NCBI RefSeq assembly: GCF_000722635.1
Contig: NZ_JOKH01000002.1
Span: 61,904 to 125,903, forward strand
DNA: 64,000 nt
From: Endozoicomonas numazuensis
Lineage (GTDB): Bacteria; Pseudomonadota; Gammaproteobacteria; Pseudomonadales; Endozoicomonadaceae
Direction: 5' to 3'
Shown here: positions 23,729 to 64,000 of the stretch, piece after piece
How the letters are laid out: every line of letters starts with the position of its first letter
How positions within the stretch are numbered: position 1 is the stretch's first letter
Program-made: the position numbers and the translations under genes
Notes under the pieces: generated by a model
What the model was told of the DNA's origin: nothing
What the model saw: the letters and a program-made list of their open reading frames with translations, nothing else
The model's database searches: none

Positions 23729-24337
23729 GTACTTCCACCGCCCTCAAAAAAACTTGAGCACCTGCACGGTCGCATCGGCTGTAATGTCCTGGCAGAACAG
23801 TTACTGGGCATTGCCCGAGATCTGGGGATTAAAGTCAAAAATGATGATGCAGAAGTGACTGAAATAGGTCCAGACAGCATCACACTGAAAGATAAAACGG
23901 TTGTTAAATACGATCAGCTTGCGGGTGTTGACGGAGCCCACTCTAAAATGAGGAAAGCTTTAACCAGTGAATCAGTGGAACAGGGTGAGGCTGTAAACCT
24001 CAATGCCTTTGGCAGAGAAGACAATAACGACGAATTTATTCTTTCGATTCGAGTCATGAGAGCATTTAAACCAAACTCCTGGACGGACAATCCACCGCCT
24101 CGTACACGACGTTTTGTTAGTAATGTCGAGGTATTGGCGTCAGATCAGGAAAACTGTTTTGAAACCTACAGCGACCTGATGGTCAGTTACAGCCGACACC
24201 AGAAAGATAATCACCCACTCTCTGCCCAGAGAAAAGATTTGCTTCGATTAGAGGGAGGAGAATTCAAAATTGTTCAAAGAGAAGTGATATTGGATTGGAA
24301 TGTCATAACCGGACCTTCTTTGAGCCTGTTTCTTTAA
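23729..24337 (+). pseudogene. chimeric relic: FAD monooxygenase piece joined to dioxygenase beta-subunit tail
   Basis: A single frame, open from 23729, reads first as the middle of a PHBH-type FAD monooxygenase (HGRIGCNVLAEQLLGIARDL, then the FAD-contact-like LAGVDGAHSKMRKAL), and from about 24030 as the C-terminal half of a ring-hydroxylating dioxygenase beta subunit (NPPPRTRRFVSNVEV, REVILDWNVITGPSLSLFL, close to the HcaF/BphE ending). Neither half has its N-terminus. A deletion probably fused two genes of an aromatic-degradation cluster. Whether the internal GTG at 23855 is used is unknown; no ribosome-binding site is evident. Confidence 0.72.
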
Positions 24338-33911: not shown

Positions 33912-34512
33912 AGTCGTTCTCCTTAACTGTGAGCTTATGAGCCTCAGCAATGCTTACGCCCAGAACGATATTAGCAAAGCGGTGTTCCAGCATTACTAAC
34001 CAGCTGTTAAGTATTCCTAACCTTTTAAAAATGGCGCTCACAACCTCTGCTTCAGTCAGTGCCAAAAAAAATTCAGAAGATTAAATCCATTCCCAAACCG
34101 TTAAAAAAAGTCGTTACAAGTATGACCAATAAGTTCTTTCAAAGCAGAACTATCAAGAAAACCCAAAAGCAATTAGTTAAACACCCAAAGGAACAATTCA
34201 ACACAGTGTTCGAATGGAATCGAGAGCTGATCATGGATCAGGCGAAAGAATCTGTTACAAAGGATCAGTGCGATCCTCAAGAACGCCCTGTCAGCTGATC
34301 ACTCTGTTTTCAGCCAAAGCCGGACACTTTCCCTTTCTCTATCTTACTGCCTGTGTGACAGAGAACAGGAAAGATCTGGCATACCGGCTGGATGATTTAC
34401 CTCAATGGCAACAGGTTTCACTCAACGACTTCAGCCTGCTCCTGAAGCGCTTCAGTCTGGCAGCAGAAAACAACCGAAAGGCCTTTTACAACCGCCGTTG
34501 AATGTCATCTGA
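33912..34512. other. gap with two weak frames only
   Basis: A 600-base stretch. On the plus strand a very basic frame (34059-34298, 79 codons, rich in Lys) and a partly overlapping frame (34214-34501, ending RFSLAAENNRKAFYNRR) are open, but neither has a ribosome-binding site or a known motif. They could be relics of one frameshifted gene. I do not call either as a gene. Confidence 0.35.
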
Positions 34513-38336: not shown

Positions 38337-39251
38337 TCAGGGAGTTTTCTTCAAATCATCAACAAGCTCTTTAATACCCGCCAATGAACCAATCACACTG
38401 CCTGCTTCCAGAGGCATCATAATGGTTTTACTGTTGTTCGCTGACGCTACTGCTTGCAGGGCAGCCACATATTTTTGAGCCACAAAATAGTTAATCGCTC
38501 TGGCATCCCCTGTTGCTATCGCCTGGGAGACCACGTCTGTAGCTCTCGCTTCAGCTTCTGCCAGCCTTTCTCTGGCTTCTGCTTCTCTTTTCGCCGCTTC
38601 AAGCTCACCTTCCGCTTTCAATATCTGAGCCTGCTTCTCACCTTCAGCTACTTCGATTGCGGCCGCTCGACTGCCTTCGGCTTCGAGTATTTGCGCCCGC
38701 TTCTCCCGCTCTGCTTTCATCTGGCGAGCCATGGACTCCACCAGGTCAGCAGGAGGCGCTATATCCCTGATTTCGATACGAGTGACTTTGACTCCCCAGG
38801 GATTCGTGGCTTCATCCACCTTGGCAAGCAACATACTGTTAATGCGGTCACGGTTGGACAACATTTCATCCAGTTCCATGGAGCCCAATACAGCACGAAT
38901 GTTCGTCATTACCAGATTCTGCATGGCTCGATAGAGTTCATTCACTTCATAGGATGCACGAACGGCGTCTTGCACCTGATAAAAGCAGACAGCATCGGTG
39001 GTTACCTGGGCATTATCAGAAGAAATGATTTCCTGAGGCGGAATATCAAGAACCTGCTCCATCATATTGATTTTTTTACCAATCATATCCACAACAGGCA
39101 CAATAACATGCAAACCAGGAGGCAATGTCCGGGTGTATTTACCAAACCGTTCTACGGTGAAATGAAAGCCCTGGGGAACCATTCTGACACCTGTACCGAT
39201 CAGTACAGCAATCAGAACGACTAATGCAATGGCTGTAATTTCAAAACCCAC
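38337..39251 (-). CDS. qmcA: SPFH/Band 7 membrane protein (QmcA-like)
   Basis: A 304-residue stomatin-like scaffold with one N-terminal membrane helix ([17 protein letters not shown]) and a cytosolic or membrane-facing SPFH domain ([37 protein letters not shown]). A long Ala/Glu-rich coiled coil follows ([20 protein letters not shown]), ending with a short [16 protein letters not shown]. Such proteins assemble in rings in the inner membrane. Paired with an NfeD gene, the classic arrangement. The gene is divergent from the ammonium transporter gene. Confidence 0.93.
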
Positions 39252-39398: not shown

Positions 39399-40772
39399 AT
39401 GCCATACGGCTATCTAAACACTCTGTTCCTTACTTTTTGTATTTTACTGATATTTTTAATGCAGATTGGTTTTTTATGCTTGGAAGCAGGGGCTGTCAGA
39501 AGCAAGAATAACGTCAATGTAGCTGCCAAGAATCTATTGGACTTTATTGTTGTCACCCTGGTTTATGCGCTGTTCAGTTTTTCAATACAATTTGGCTCCT
39601 TTGATACCCTCATGGACAACGCCCATCCACGATCACCGGGCTACCCTTATCTGTTCTTGATTTTTCAATCATTCTTTGCCGTCACCGCCAGCACTATTGT
39701 TTCTGGTGCCATTGCTGAACGGAGCAGCCTGAAGGCTTATTTGCTGATTGCCCTTATGATTGCCCTGCTGATCTATCCGGTTGCCGGACAATGGATTTGG
39801 GGTGGATTACTGGGTACCCCCCAGGGCTGGTTGTCTGCCATGGGTTTTATTGATTTTGCAGGCTCTACTGTTGTACATGTGCTGGGGGGCTCGGTTGCTC
39901 TGGCTGCGGTTCTGGTTATAGGCCCCAGAGAGGGCTTTGCGGAACAAAGCTACAAGAAATTCAGAGGCCAGAATCAGGTGATCACCCTGATGGGAGCCAT
40001 GATGATCTGGCTAGGCTGGTTTGGATTTAATCTGGGTAGCTTATTAAAAGTCGATGCCTCTATACCGGCCATTTTGACTACTACCCTGCTGGGAGCCTGC
40101 TCAGGAGGACTCGCAGCCACGCTCTGGAGTCTGGTGTTTTTCAAAAAATTTGATGTCCCTGTCATCGCCAATGGTGTGCTGGCCGGACTGGTAGGTATCA
40201 CAGCCGGAGTCCATATTCTTGAGATCTATACAGCCATTCTTACAGGATTTATCGCAGGCTTAATTTGTTGTGGCGCAATGGTTCAATTAGAAAACTGGAA
40301 GATTGATGACGTTATCGGAGCCATTCCGGTTCATTTAACTGCTGGTATTTGGGGCACAATAGCCGTTGCCCTGCTCGGAGACCTCAGTCTCATCAACAAT
40401 GGCTTGAACACCGTTGAACAATTAAGCGTTCAGGCGCTGGGCGTAGCCGTCACCTTTGCCTGGGCTTTTGGTATCAGCTACGTTGCCTTAACGGCCATCA
40501 ATAAATTTATGCCGCTGCGAGTCTCTCGTCAGGCAGAACAGTTGGGACTTAATATTGCTGAGCATGGCAGTACAACCGAATTGTCTGACCTGGTTAACAA
40601 GCTTGAGAAACAAGCAGAACAAGGCCACTTCAAGCCTGTCATACATGACCCTTTTTCAGAACTGAGTGGCATCACCCGCCAATATAATCACGTGCTAGAA
40701 CGCTTTTTAGAGACTCAATCCCGATTAAACCTAAACATCAAAACATTGAAAAACATTGAAAAACATTCGTGA
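39399..40772 (+). CDS. amtB: ammonium transporter domain of a split Amt-histidine kinase
   Basis: An 11-helix Amt/Mep/Rh channel of about 400 residues. Landmarks are [55 protein letters not shown] (first pore His), [11 protein letters not shown] and [17 protein letters not shown] (second pore His). The ATG at 39399 is chosen over an upstream TTG. After residue 390 a cytosolic linker ([36 protein letters not shown]) continues, as in Amt proteins fused to signalling domains. A 10-bp tandem repeat at 40740-40769 throws the frame to an early stop at 40772; the kinase follows in another frame. Confidence 0.9.
40740..40769 (+). repeat. 10-bp tandem repeat that breaks the Amt-kinase frame
   Basis: AAAACATTGA, AAAACATTGA and AAAACATTCG follow each other. 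With three units the Amt frame stops after KNIEKHS; with two units the reading would run [20 protein letters not shown] and enter the kinase. Loss of one unit therefore restores a single fused gene. Confidence 0.88.
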
Positions 40773-41517
40773 CCAGTTAGAGATGCAAAGAGACAAGACT
40801 GAATCAGCCAATCGTCACAAAAGTATTTTTCTGACAAAAATGAGTCATGAAATCAGAACACCCCTTAACGGCATTGTCGCGACTTCTGACTTGATGAAAG
40901 ATGAGGAGCTTACCGACGAACAGGCTCAATATGTTGAAATCATACAGCAGTCTGGCATGGCATTAATGAGCATTATCACCGACGTGCTGGACTACTCTAA
41001 AATCGAATCCGGCAAACTGGAACTGGATCAACAACCCTTTGACCTGGCCATTTTGATTGAACAGAGCAAGGCAGTTTTTATACCAGAAACCCTGTCTCGA
41101 CCTATAGAGCTCAGCAGCTCGATTGATCTGGGAACACCTCTGCAACTGATGGGAGACTTTAATCGCCTCAGACAGGTACTGATCAATTTACTGGGCAATG
41201 CCTTCAAATTTACCCTAACCGGCACGGTTACTTTAAAAGCCTCTACCGTCTCTGAAACAGACAATTTATTGATCGAGGTTGTTGATACAGGCCCAGGCAT
41301 TCCGGAAGAAAAGCTAAAGTCCATTTTTGACTCTTTTGAACAGGCCGACAATACCTACAGCAGAAAGTTTGGAGGCAGTGGATTAGGCCTGACTCTGAGC
41401 AAACACCTGGTTGAGTTAATGGGTGGCAGCCTGAGTGTCTCAAGCCGGACCGATAAAGGAACAACCTTCTCTATCAAGCTGCCTATTGTTCGTCAGACCC
41501 CGCAAAAGCCTGCCTGA
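40756..41517 (+). CDS. histidine kinase domain of the split Amt-histidine kinase
   Basis: Contains the HisKA dimerisation domain with the phospho-acceptor His (FLTKMSHEIRTPLNGIV near residue 30) and a complete HATPase (N box RQVLINLLGNAFKFT, G1 VDTGPGIPEE, F box FDSFEQAD, G2 GGSGLGLTLSKHLVELMGG). There is no receiver or Hpt domain. It has no ribosome-binding site: the frame simply enters at the 10-bp repeat (a TTG at 40756), so it was the C-terminal part of the upstream transporter. As a separate piece it might be poorly made. No response regulator is adjacent. The stop is five bases from the convergent cysK stop. Confidence 0.85.
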   Translation: MKNIRDQLEMQRDKTESANRHKSIFLTKMSHEIRTPLNGIVATSDLMKDEELTDEQAQYVEIIQQSGMALMSIITDVLDYSKIESGKLELDQQPFDLAILIEQSKAVFIPETLSRPIELSSSIDLGTPLQLMGDFNRLRQVLINLLGNAFKFTLTGTVTLKASTVSETDNLLIEVVDTGPGIPEEKLKSIFDSFEQADNTYSRKFGGSGLGLTLSKHLVELMGGSLSVSSRTDKGTTFSIKLPIVRQTPQKPA

Positions 41518-41521
41518 GCCA

Positions 41522-42493
41522 TTACTGAACCGTCTCGTTATCCGAGAATACACCTTCAAACAAGGCGGTTGAAAGATAACGTTCGCCTGAATCAGGCAAA
41601 ACAACCACAATGTTTTTGCCTTTATGGACCGGCTGCTCTGCCACTTTCAAGGCAGCTGCCAAAGCCGCTCCTCCAGAGATACCTGCCAAAATGCCTTCTT
41701 CTTTCATCAGCTTCAATGCGGTTTCAATAGCCTCTTCATTACTGACCTGTTCAACCTCATCCACCAGATTCAAATCAAGGTTGGCGGGAATAAAACCAGC
41801 ACCAATACCCTGAATTTTATGAGGGGCAGGTTTCACTTCCTGGCCTGCCAGCGTCTGGCTGATAATAGGAGAAGCACTGGGCTCCACAGCGACTGAAGTA
41901 ATAGCCTTACCCTGAATATTCTTGATGTATCGGGAGACCCCCGTAATGGTACCTCCGGTACCTACCCCAGCTACAAACACATCGATCTCACCATCGGTGT
42001 CATGCCAGATTTCCGGGCCGGTGGTTTCTTCATGAATTCTTGGGTTAGCCGGATTTTCAAATTGCTGGAGCAACAAATACTTTTCAGACTCTGCTTCAGC
42101 CAGCTCTTTGGCTTTAGCAATAGCGCCGGGCATGCCCTTGGCTGGTTCCGTCAGAATAATATTGGCACCCAGGGCCTTCATGACTTTTCTTCTTTCCAGA
42201 CTCATGGAAGCAGGCATCGTCAGTGTTAGAGGAATACCTTTTGAAGAAGCAACAAATGCCAGAGCGATACCGGTATTGCCACTGGTAGGTTCAATCAATT
42301 CCATGCCCGGTTTCAGCCGACCTGATGCTTCAGCATCCCAGACCATGCTGGCACCTATACGGCATTTAACACTGTTAGCAGGATTACGAGACTCAATCTT
42401 AACAAAGATATTATGATCACCCGCCAACCGATTCAGCTTCACCAGTGGCGTACTTCCGATAGATTGAGAGTTGTCCTGAAATACCTTCTTCAT
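41522..42493 (-). CDS. cysK: cysteine synthase A
   Basis: A PLP enzyme that makes cysteine from O-acetylserine and sulfide. The 323 residues show [13 protein letters not shown], the PLP lysine in [19 protein letters not shown], the substrate loop [16 protein letters not shown], and [16 protein letters not shown] for phosphate binding; Ser in [12 protein letters not shown]. Length and motifs fit CysK rather than CysM. It starts 166 bases before the divergent moxR-like gene; a 20-base palindrome lies in between. Confidence 0.95.
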
Positions 42494-53872: not shown

Positions 53873-54963
53873 TTACGCTTCCTCAACCTCTGTCACTACA
53901 CGACGTGCTACTTTAGCTGGGTCTTGTGCCTGAATAATAGGCCTGCCAACCACCAGATGAGTTGCTCCATTCAGTGCAGCTATGGCGGGAGTACCTGAAC
54001 GAACTTGATCACCTTTGTCATCTTCAGCCAACCGAATTCCCGGAGTAATGATCAAAAAGTCTTTGGGGACAATACCCTTGATTTTCTTTGCTTCTTGGGA
54101 AGAAGCAATAACGCCATGACAGCCCGACTTTACCGCTAACTCAGTTAGCCTGATTACCTGCTCAAGTGGAGAACAATGCCACCCCAATTCATTCATTGCC
54201 CTTTGATCCAAGCCTGTAACAACGGTAAGGGCCACAACCTTCATCCTTGAGAACTCTTCAGCAGCCGCTACGGCAGCTTTCATCATTGCCTGCCCACCGG
54301 ATGCATGTACTGACACCATGTCAACCCCATGCCTCCCTGCAGACCTCACAGCGGCGGTAACAGAGTTCGGGATTTCATGAAGTTTCAGATCAAGAAAAAC
54401 GGTTTTATGCTGCTCTTTCAAATAATGAATAGCGGTCGGGCCTTCTGAAGTCATCAGCTGGTGACCTATCTTGTAGTACTCAACTTCAGGGCCAAGCTGA
54501 GAAACAAGTTTTTTAACCTGATCCAGTGTTTCAACGTCCAAGGCTACGACTAATTCACTTCTTCCTGACAAAGCTTTTCTCCCTTCTCCCTTCTCCCACT
54601 CAGCCTGCTCAGTGGCCAACCGTTCTTTTTGTTTTAATTTAATTTCAGCCCAGGTTTTGCCCTGCTGAAGACCGTCCATCCGTTCTGAATATTTTATATA
54701 AGCTCGCTCAAATACACGATTTGGCTGAATACGGCCTTCCTTTTCAAGACTTAAAAGAAAGTTAAGGTAATCCCAGAGCACGTCGCCTAATTCATCTTCT
54801 AAATGACAGACTCTTCCAGAGGCTATCTCTTCAGAGACTTCCTGAAGTTCCAGATGCATTTCACGGAAATAAGTCTGACTGTCTTGAAACCACTGTTGTT
54901 CTCGTCATATTGATTCTTGGTGCGAGCCACTTCAAACAGCTGAGCAATAACATCTGAATTCAT
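53873..54963 (-). CDS. pyrF: MazG-like and PyrF fusion, frameshifted near its start
   Basis: The C-terminal 230 residues are orotidine 5'-phosphate decarboxylase (SELVVALDVETLDQ; catalytic VFLDLKLHEIPNSV; TVVTGLDQRAM; VVGRPIIQAQDP), the last step of UMP synthesis. The first 95 residues of the open frame from ATG 54859 are the second half of a MazG-type nucleotide pyrophosphohydrolase (ELQEVSEEI and HLEDELGDVLWDYLNFLL). The first half lies upstream in another frame: ATG 54963 encodes MNSDVIAQLFEVARTK and QYDENN, and a one-base gain near 54898 would join it to WFQDSQTYFREMHLEL. So a full fused gene is broken by one base. PyrF might still be made from the internal ATG, although no ribosome-binding site precedes it. 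Confidence 0.85.
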
Positions 54964-62603: not shown

Positions 62604-64000
62604 ATCGGGATAGGGCGTAGCCTCACGGCTACGCTCCTCCCACAACACCCAGCATACGGGTCCGTACTGGGCGTTTCGGCCAGTTAAGCGGCCAACAATC
62701 TGATTAAACCTAACTTATCAAACCAACTATTGGGTAGCGCCATGTGTAACGCAGGACTCCGGCTCACTCGCCAATGTCCTTTTCCTGAAGCTACCGTTTG
62801 CCTTGTCAGTTTGTCACTGATTCCCTGCTTTCGCAGCTCCTTGTACCGCTTTGGGCTTCTCTTCCATTGATACCAGAGCAGACTTCGCAACCGCCTTCTT
62901 ATCCAACAGTCAAAGTGTTCAAACTCTGTGCGGGTTTCTACTTCTCGGAAGTAGTTCTTCCATCCCTGCAAGTACCTGTTGAGTCCTTCCAGCCTCTGCT
63001 CAAGGGATCGACCTCCCTTTCGGGTTAGCTGTCTGATTTTATCCTTGAAGCGCTTGCCACTCTTTGTCGCAAGGGTTTTCCTGCCGTCTCGGGTAAAACT
63101 GTACCCCAGAAAGGGGCGCTTCCATGCCCGATCAACCGCGCTCTTTGTGTGATTGACTTTCAGTTTCATTTTACCCTCGATCAGCTTGACCAGACTGGCC
63201 ATCACCCTTTCCCCTGCCTTCTTACTTTTAACAAACACACGACAGTCGTCAGCGTACCGAACAAATCGCAGACCTCGATTTTCGAGCGTTCTGTCAAGTT
63301 CGTCCAATACTATGTTTGAAAGTACAGGAGACAGGGGACCTCCCTGTGGCACACCCTCCGCTTGCGGTTTTACCAGCCCGTTTTCCATCACTCCGGACTT
63401 CAGGAATCGACGAATCAAACGCAATACATCCTTGTCCTCTATATGCTCTGCCAACTTTGCCATCAGTCGATCATGGTTGACCCGGTCGAAAAACTTCGAC
63501 AAATCAATATCCACCACCCAGTTGTAACCATCCTTTATATACAGCTGAGCCTGACTGATAGCCTGATGTGCAGACCTATAGGGCCTAAATCCGTAGCTGT
63601 AAGCCGAGAACCTTGGCTCCCACTCTGCCTGCAATACTTGTTGTATTGCCTGCTGCACCATTCGATCAAGAGCTGTTGGTATACCCAACTTTCGCTCTCC
63701 TCCGTCCGGCTTGGGAATCAGAACTCTTCTTACTGGAGTGGGTTTCCACAACCCTCTGCTCAAACACTGCCTCAGTTGACGACCATGCCCTTGTAAATAC
63801 GTGAACAGGTCTTCCACTGTCATGCGGTCAATGCCTGCCGCTCCTTTGTTGCGTTTTACTCGCTGAAAGGCTTTCTTCAGATTATTGGGGTGGGCGATAC
63901 GTGCCATCAAGCCTGTATCGCTTGCCGGGCTTTCGTAATCCTGTGATGCCGACACAACCTCAGCCCTCATAACGTCGCAGCCTCCGGTTCCGCCGTGACC
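62604..64000 (-). mobile_element. group II intron, 3' part (5' end beyond the window)
   Basis: On the minus strand the sequence after the maturase gene contains a domain V-like hairpin (GCCCAGTACGGACCCGTATG, then CTGGG) and a domain VI hairpin (GGAGCGTAGCC, GTGA, GGCTACGCCC) that leads to the end CTATCCCGAT at 62604. This end is typical of bacterial group II introns. The ribozyme domains I-IV precede the maturase or lie past the right edge. The flank after the intron is CATCTTAAAAAACCGC, i.e. the terminator. Confidence 0.85.
62684..63970 (-). CDS. ltrA: group II intron reverse transcriptase/maturase
   Basis: A 428-residue intron-encoded protein that splices the intron RNA and copies it into DNA. 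RT motifs are visible: RNKGAAGIDRMTVEDL (RT0/1), RKLGIPTALDRMVQQAIQQV (RT2), YSYGFRPYRSAHQAI (RT3), VVDIDLSKFFDRVNHD (RT3/4), GVPQGGPLSPVLSNIVLDEL (RT4), the catalytic FVRYADDCRVFV (RT5) and GYSFTRDGRK. A maturase (X) domain follows; there is no HNH endonuclease domain. The frame is complete, starting at ATG 63970, so it may be active. Confidence 0.95.
   Translation of the reverse strand: MRAEVVSASQDYESPASDTGLMARIAHPNNLKKAFQRVKRNKGAAGIDRMTVEDLFTYLQGHGRQLRQCLSRGLWKPTPVRRVLIPKPDGGERKLGIPTALDRMVQQAIQQVLQAEWEPRFSAYSYGFRPYRSAHQAISQAQLYIKDGYNWVVDIDLSKFFDRVNHDRLMAKLAEHIEDKDVLRLIRRFLKSGVMENGLVKPQAEGVPQGGPLSPVLSNIVLDELDRTLENRGLRFVRYADDCRVFVKSKKAGERVMASLVKLIEGKMKLKVNHTKSAVDRAWKRPFLGYSFTRDGRKTLATKSGKRFKDKIRQLTRKGGRSLEQRLEGLNRYLQGWKNYFREVETRTEFEHFDCWIRRRLRSLLWYQWKRSPKRYKELRKQGISDKLTRQTVASGKGHWRVSRSPALHMALPNSWFDKLGLIRLLAA

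Follow-up and report, generated by a model that had tools for sequence, protein, structure and literature searches.

In this report, we describe an Amt-histidine kinase gene of Endozoicomonas that is divided between two reading frames at a short 10-bp tandem array, and we consider it likely that a recent slippage duplication split a former Amt-kinase sensor and thereby uncoupled sensing from the kinase, with reversion possible by chance. A sequence-only reading of this DNA had proposed that one extra 10-bp unit breaks the fusion, and comparison with the nearest relative, G006 (Endozoicomonas arenosclerae, by contig match), bears this out: G006 encodes one frame of 702 residues at the same locus and has exactly ten bases fewer. 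What counts for a recent duplication is the presence of the gene at the same locus in four members of the genus, a repeat that is private to the window, even rates of change, and other losses within the family; what counts against it is that the even kinase rates would agree just as well with a kinase that works on its own, or with a gene that switches.

Results

The window is the whole stretch of 64,000 nt that was analysed, and all unlabelled coordinates count from its first base; it belongs to a draft assembly of 6.34 Mb in 31 contigs, and the features discussed here are collected in Table 1. The Amt domain of the first frame is well defined (Ammonium_transp PF00909, E 3e-101; NCBIfam TIGR00836 above the cut-off), and the frame ends with a shifted tail, EKHS, followed by TGA at 40770-40772. 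On the sequence evidence, ATG 39399 is the likelier Amt start, because it is aligned with the MPYG start of G006. The kinase frame is offset from the Amt frame by one base, the shift expected of a 10-bp insertion, and its product would have 253 aa if translation began at TTG 40756 and 244 aa if it began at ATG 40783; no clear Shine-Dalgarno sequence was found at either start, the best matches to AGGAGG being 2/6 and 3/6, respectively. The catalytic motifs of the kinase are intact, its phospho-accepting histidine is kept, and its frame contains no further stop codons. Programmed frameshifting into the kinase frame, for which a shift of +1 or -2 would be needed, is disfavoured, since inspection by eye found no site of the usual slippery motifs before the stop.

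Table 1. Features of the Amt-kinase locus and tandem arrays elsewhere in the same genome
Feature	Position	Strand	Description or basis
Conserved left neighbour	38337-39251	-	ORF; conserved position in relatives
First frame, Amt domain and signalling linker, 462 aa	39384-40772	+	ORF list, Pfam, G006 alignment
Linker with GLNxxEHG...QYN motifs	40497-40760	+	Located after Amt in fusions with a kinase or with GGDEF
Tandem array	40740-40769	+	AAAACATTGA, 2.8 perfect copies (sequence, Tandem Repeats Finder)
Second frame, histidine kinase	40756-41517	+	Open from TTG 40756; Pfam
HisKA	40819-41013	+	PF00512, E 5.3e-20
Phospho-accepting histidine codon CAT	40846-40848	+	Motif MSHEIRTPL
HATPase_c	41152-41487	+	PF02518, E 2.6e-31
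Conserved right neighbour	41522-42493	-	ORF; conserved position in relatives
GCTGGAAG x12	L178 11963-12059		Own genome; intergenic or beside runs of N
GCTGGAAG x20	L181 10004-10167		Own genome; intergenic or beside runs of N
CTGGAAAG x17	L175 16227-16361		Own genome; intergenic or beside runs of N
AAGG x14.5	L169 13434-13491		Own genome; intergenic or beside runs of N
GCTTTTG x5.9	L169 2597-2637		Own genome; survey list

The meeting point of the two frames had been described as three tandem 10-base units, and of this description the array and the frames stand, while the third unit is incomplete: AAAACATTGA occupies 40740-40749 and 40750-40759 and is followed at 40760-40769 by AAAACATT plus CG, which agrees with the unit at 8/10 bases and brings the perfect run to 28 bp, or 2.8 copies. 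The position of the meeting point at the repeat adds no further coincidence, because a frameshifting tandem duplication necessarily puts it there. Four exact arrays (period 4-12, at least 2.5 copies, run of at least 18) are present in the window, against none in 30 dinucleotide shuffles. The core pattern AAAACATTNNAAAACATT has two matches genome-wide (6.34 Mb), both within the array, and a dispersed repeat family or mobile element is ruled out by this confinement. A DNA query of the same assembly returned the window locus and one 47-base kinase fragment, and no second full gene copy with a two-unit allele. A survey of 464 kb of this genome covered twenty stretches of 20 kb besides the window. 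It listed 27 exact arrays with 2.5 copies or more, some rows overlapping, and 8-bp units reached 20 copies; the large frames around two of the long arrays are artefacts of runs of N.

Elsewhere in the window, a 328-aa frame at 53873-54859 (-) holds a MazG-like remnant together with an OMP decarboxylase (pyrF) domain, the MazG N-terminus lying in another frame; GGGAGAA occurs three times between the two parts, at 54577-54597, and could be a repeated Shine-Dalgarno sequence for a TTG start of pyrF. A group II intron reverse transcriptase/maturase is encoded at 62684-63970 (-).

Alignment of the window with G006 contains a single 10-base gap in G006, which places the extra ten bases in the 40740-40769 array, and the gene is otherwise gap-free, with its parts in the same order. 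At this site G006 carries AAAACCCTGC AAAACATTCG, an imperfect pair with 6/10 bases agreeing. Judged by these sequences, the Amt-kinase fusion is the ancestral form, because G006 encodes one protein and has exactly ten bases fewer; as is typical of a pseudogene, the homologue is intact in relatives and the frame is disrupted in the window. The repeat was absent from all 11 homologous junctions that were read by eye in the printed sequences. The same two neighbour genes, which we take to be an SPFH/stomatin-like gene on the left and a cysteine synthase (cysM-like) gene on the right, flank the Amt-kinase gene in G006, G010, G005 and G008, and they adjoin each other with no Amt-kinase gene between them in G007 and G009; the left neighbour has no close match in G001 and G002, and the right neighbour none in G003 and G004.

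In the block that can be aligned with G006 (17.4-44.1 kb), 28 G006 frames, each of at least 100 residues and with shadow frames included, find counterparts that are at least 55% identical. One of them, the Amt-kinase, is matched in two frames, and four are matched only partly, two of these being remnants of real genes. Gene erosion occurs nearby, and the type of frame breakage seen in the Amt-kinase gene is singular in this block. A short frame at 23855-24337 (+), apparently the product of a deletion, joins a piece of a 470-aa G006 protein to a Ring_hydroxyl_B domain, and the frame at 34277-34498 (+) is the C-terminal remnant of a 449-aa protein encoded in full by G006.

Between the window and G006, dN/dS is 0.043 for the Amt part, and the kinase gives 0.068; synonymous sites are close to saturation (pS ~0.7). 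Relative rates against three outgroups, given as window/G006 changes, are 9/7, 8/8 and 7/8 for the kinase, small counts with little power, and 24/19, 19/18 and 19/22 for Amt; neither they nor the stop scan gave any sign of relaxed constraint or further lesions in the window kinase. The lack of relaxed constraint argues against an old pseudogene and fits a very recent break, a kinase that is still used, or a switching gene.

The family set comprised 38 genomes. In 13 of them the G006 protein has a counterpart with an E value no higher than 1e-60, and genes with both Amt and kinase number 13 in 11 of the 38 genomes; G028:C101 and G019, which match in Amt and linker only, and G011, which matches in the kinase only, were left out of this count. 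The comparison of homologues that the sequence-only reading had called for found transporter and kinase fused in one frame in 10 of the 13 genes (one each in G006, G010, G005, G008, G028 and G030, two each in G035 and G036), and the gene is therefore usually useful, a point against its loss in the window. The G008 gene has one TAA among the first few codons of the alignment, and downstream of it an ATG starts an open frame of 686 residues. The remaining three genes are each broken differently, by the duplication in the window, by an insertion in G020 and by three frame changes in G009. In the G020 gene (L047 5094-8949), the break follows residue 336 and is due to an insertion that carries a frame of 557 residues resembling an IS66 transposase. 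The G009 gene (L211 2459-4552) consists of four segments of changing frame and does not lie at the locus of the window gene; a repeat search found no tandem duplications at its three breaks and returned two weak direct repeats, one of which (2685-2706, 11 bp, 91%) lies ~50 bases before the first break. With no repeat at any break, the G009 gene is ruled out as a second case of the mechanism in the window.

Among the best 80 of 490 linker loci, simple motifs identified 37 kinases and 27 GGDEF proteins, and at least 232 in-frame residues follow the linker motif in 74 loci, 139 in one and fewer than 100 in five. In one of these six short loci, L140 of an alphaproteobacterial MAG, the Amt-linker is immediately followed by a kinase that lies in a different frame. 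In four loci of Granulosicoccaceae (L130, L131, L137 and L146), the Amt has a tail resembling the linker but lacks an output domain, and another Amt gene comes immediately after it.

The phospho-accepting histidine is missing in 5 of the 13 family genes and kept in the other eight. It is replaced by Arg in G010 and G005, by Gln in G008 and by Asp in G035 and G036 (loci L005, L006, L007, L008 and L009 for G010, G005, G008, G035 and G036, respectively). In the best 80 of 490 loci, 35 of the 37 kinases keep the histidine, and the two that do not, from E. elysicola and E. cretensis, are the Asp genes. The tree of the Amt-linker part groups the window and G006 with G010, G005 and G008 (92/92), apart from G035/G036, and since it separates the former three histidine-less genes from the latter two, there were at least two histidine losses. 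The kinase domains of these genes have a dN/dS of 0.096 for G010/G005 and 0.140 for G035/G036 (Amt there, 0.156); purifying selection still acts on them, which points to a role other than phosphotransfer, and to judge from their sequences these domains may be pseudokinases that have kept a function.

Discussion

Our data suggest a model whereby an Amt-histidine kinase ammonium sensor of ~700 residues was the ancestral state and substitutions in the window lineage made two neighbouring 8-base stretches, ten bases apart, identical (AAAACATT); the slippable near-perfect pair would have arisen in this lineage, because G006 has only the imperfect pair. Replication slippage, or an equivalent event, would then have added one 10-bp unit to the linker, immediately ahead of the kinase. 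The Amt would be left with a shortened linker, and the kinase would either go untranslated or, through weak reinitiation, be made as a detached soluble protein. Ammonium sensing would thereby be uncoupled from kinase output, and loss of one unit would restore the fusion, with no sign of an evolved switch. Phase variation and a recent disabling mutation had both been put forward from the sequence. The disabling mutation is the better fit, since in the family two further genes are broken by unrelated means and five have lost the histidine; phase variation is not borne out, with no array at the 11 homologous junctions and an array as short as 2.8 copies.

A phase-variable switch, at which slippage in the array toggles between a fused, ammonium-regulated kinase and a split, uncoupled state, is in our view unlikely. 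The array is perfect over 28 bp in a gene that is otherwise intact, it has, as a contingency locus would, a period of 10 bp that is not divisible by three inside a reading frame, tandem arrays do expand in this genome (8-bp units, 12 to 20 copies), and the even kinase rates suit a gene that is still in use; however, the array is missing from 11/11 homologous junctions, and its copies are far fewer than those of the long arrays, which sit intergenically or near assembly gaps. A repeat that is conserved or variable among relatives, as is also expected of a contingency locus, is not what the 11 junctions and the 6/10 pair of G006 present. The more elaborate proposal that the unit number toggles between an ammonium-gated membrane kinase and a free, ungated kinase with a plain transporter, and that symbionts in this way hedge over host ammonium, we hold to be quite improbable. 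In literature largely outside subscription journals, we found no paper on phase variation in Endozoicomonas, and none on an ammonium transporter together with a histidine kinase in this genus.

It is also rather improbable that the split is itself functional, with a kinase made by coupled reinitiation at TTG 40756 or ATG 40783 and free of ammonium control. Coupling is favoured in principle by the overlapping frames and by an in-frame ATG eleven bases past the Amt stop region, the motifs and change rates of the kinase are preserved, and L140 likewise has its Amt-linker and kinase in different frames; but neither start has a convincing Shine-Dalgarno sequence, the ten other intact genes of the family are all fused, and L140 comes from a MAG, in which a sequencing error is possible. 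An assembly or sequencing error, with two units in truth, would agree with a draft of 31 contigs that has runs of N near other arrays; yet there is no N near this array, and a perfect 10-bp duplication within 28 bp, shorter than an ordinary read, is atypical as an error, so we judge this explanation very unlikely. A recent duplication that disabled the fusion remains our preferred reading.

The fusion itself is not novel, since Amt-kinase sensors are already known. Ks-Amt5 of Candidatus Kuenenia stuttgartiensis is, in the part of its description available to us, an ammonium sensor histidine kinase whose ammonium response needs the full-length protein, whose isolated kinase domain autophosphorylates unregulated, and whose pore is closed by the bulky helix-I residues F27, Y30 and F34 (PMC5764959). 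Like Ks-Amt5 (679 aa), the G006 protein (702 aa) is an Amt fused to a HisKA/HATPase_c kinase, and the Amt domain of the window can be aligned with that of Ks-Amt5 over its full length (6eu6, E 1.3e-71). At the places of the three pore residues, the alignment puts F30, L33 and A37 of the window, so that a transport-dead state would not be required. Unlike Ks-Amt5, the window gene is split by a frameshift; Amt, HisKA, HATPase_c and the histidine are all present, but not on a single polypeptide in this assembly. By analogy, the state in the window would be one of no kinase or of an ungated kinase. The same linker is found in Amt-GGDEF fusions and in the solved chains 8qj3 and 8qpf ('Ammonium transporter', 644 and 661 aa), with which the alignment reaches window residue 458; these two chains, which we take to be cyclase fusions, differ from the window gene in their output domain, and the GGDEF motif occurs in 27 of the best 80 loci.

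Sensor kinases altered via DNA repeats are reportedly also found in pheN of Pseudomonas tolaasii, through a reversible duplication, and in bvgS of Bordetella, through slippage; it is in pheN and bvgS, and not in the window, that switching is said to have been demonstrated. In the available part of one report, microhomology-mediated tandem duplications in ssp1 of fission yeast give reversible frameshifts, and similarly the coding segment between two microhomologous copies is duplicated here, with a frameshift that would be revertible (PMC13207564); unlike the fungal case, the window presents one fixed-looking event in a bacterial assembly. The accessible portion of PMC6083042 contains nothing on phase variation of a kinase, and that of PMC12817950 has promoter repeats as its subject.

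As a plain mutation, the break would be an uncoupling within an already known kind of sensor. If the array does switch, ammonium sensing would be under the control of a heritable toggle in a symbiont of corals and sponges, for which host ammonium is a central signal. Kinase-output loss in other genomes is no proof of loss in the window gene, and the break in the window would be part of a wider pattern in which, across the family, the Amt module is kept while the kinase output behind it is repeatedly lost, by frameshift, by insertion and by loss of the histidine.
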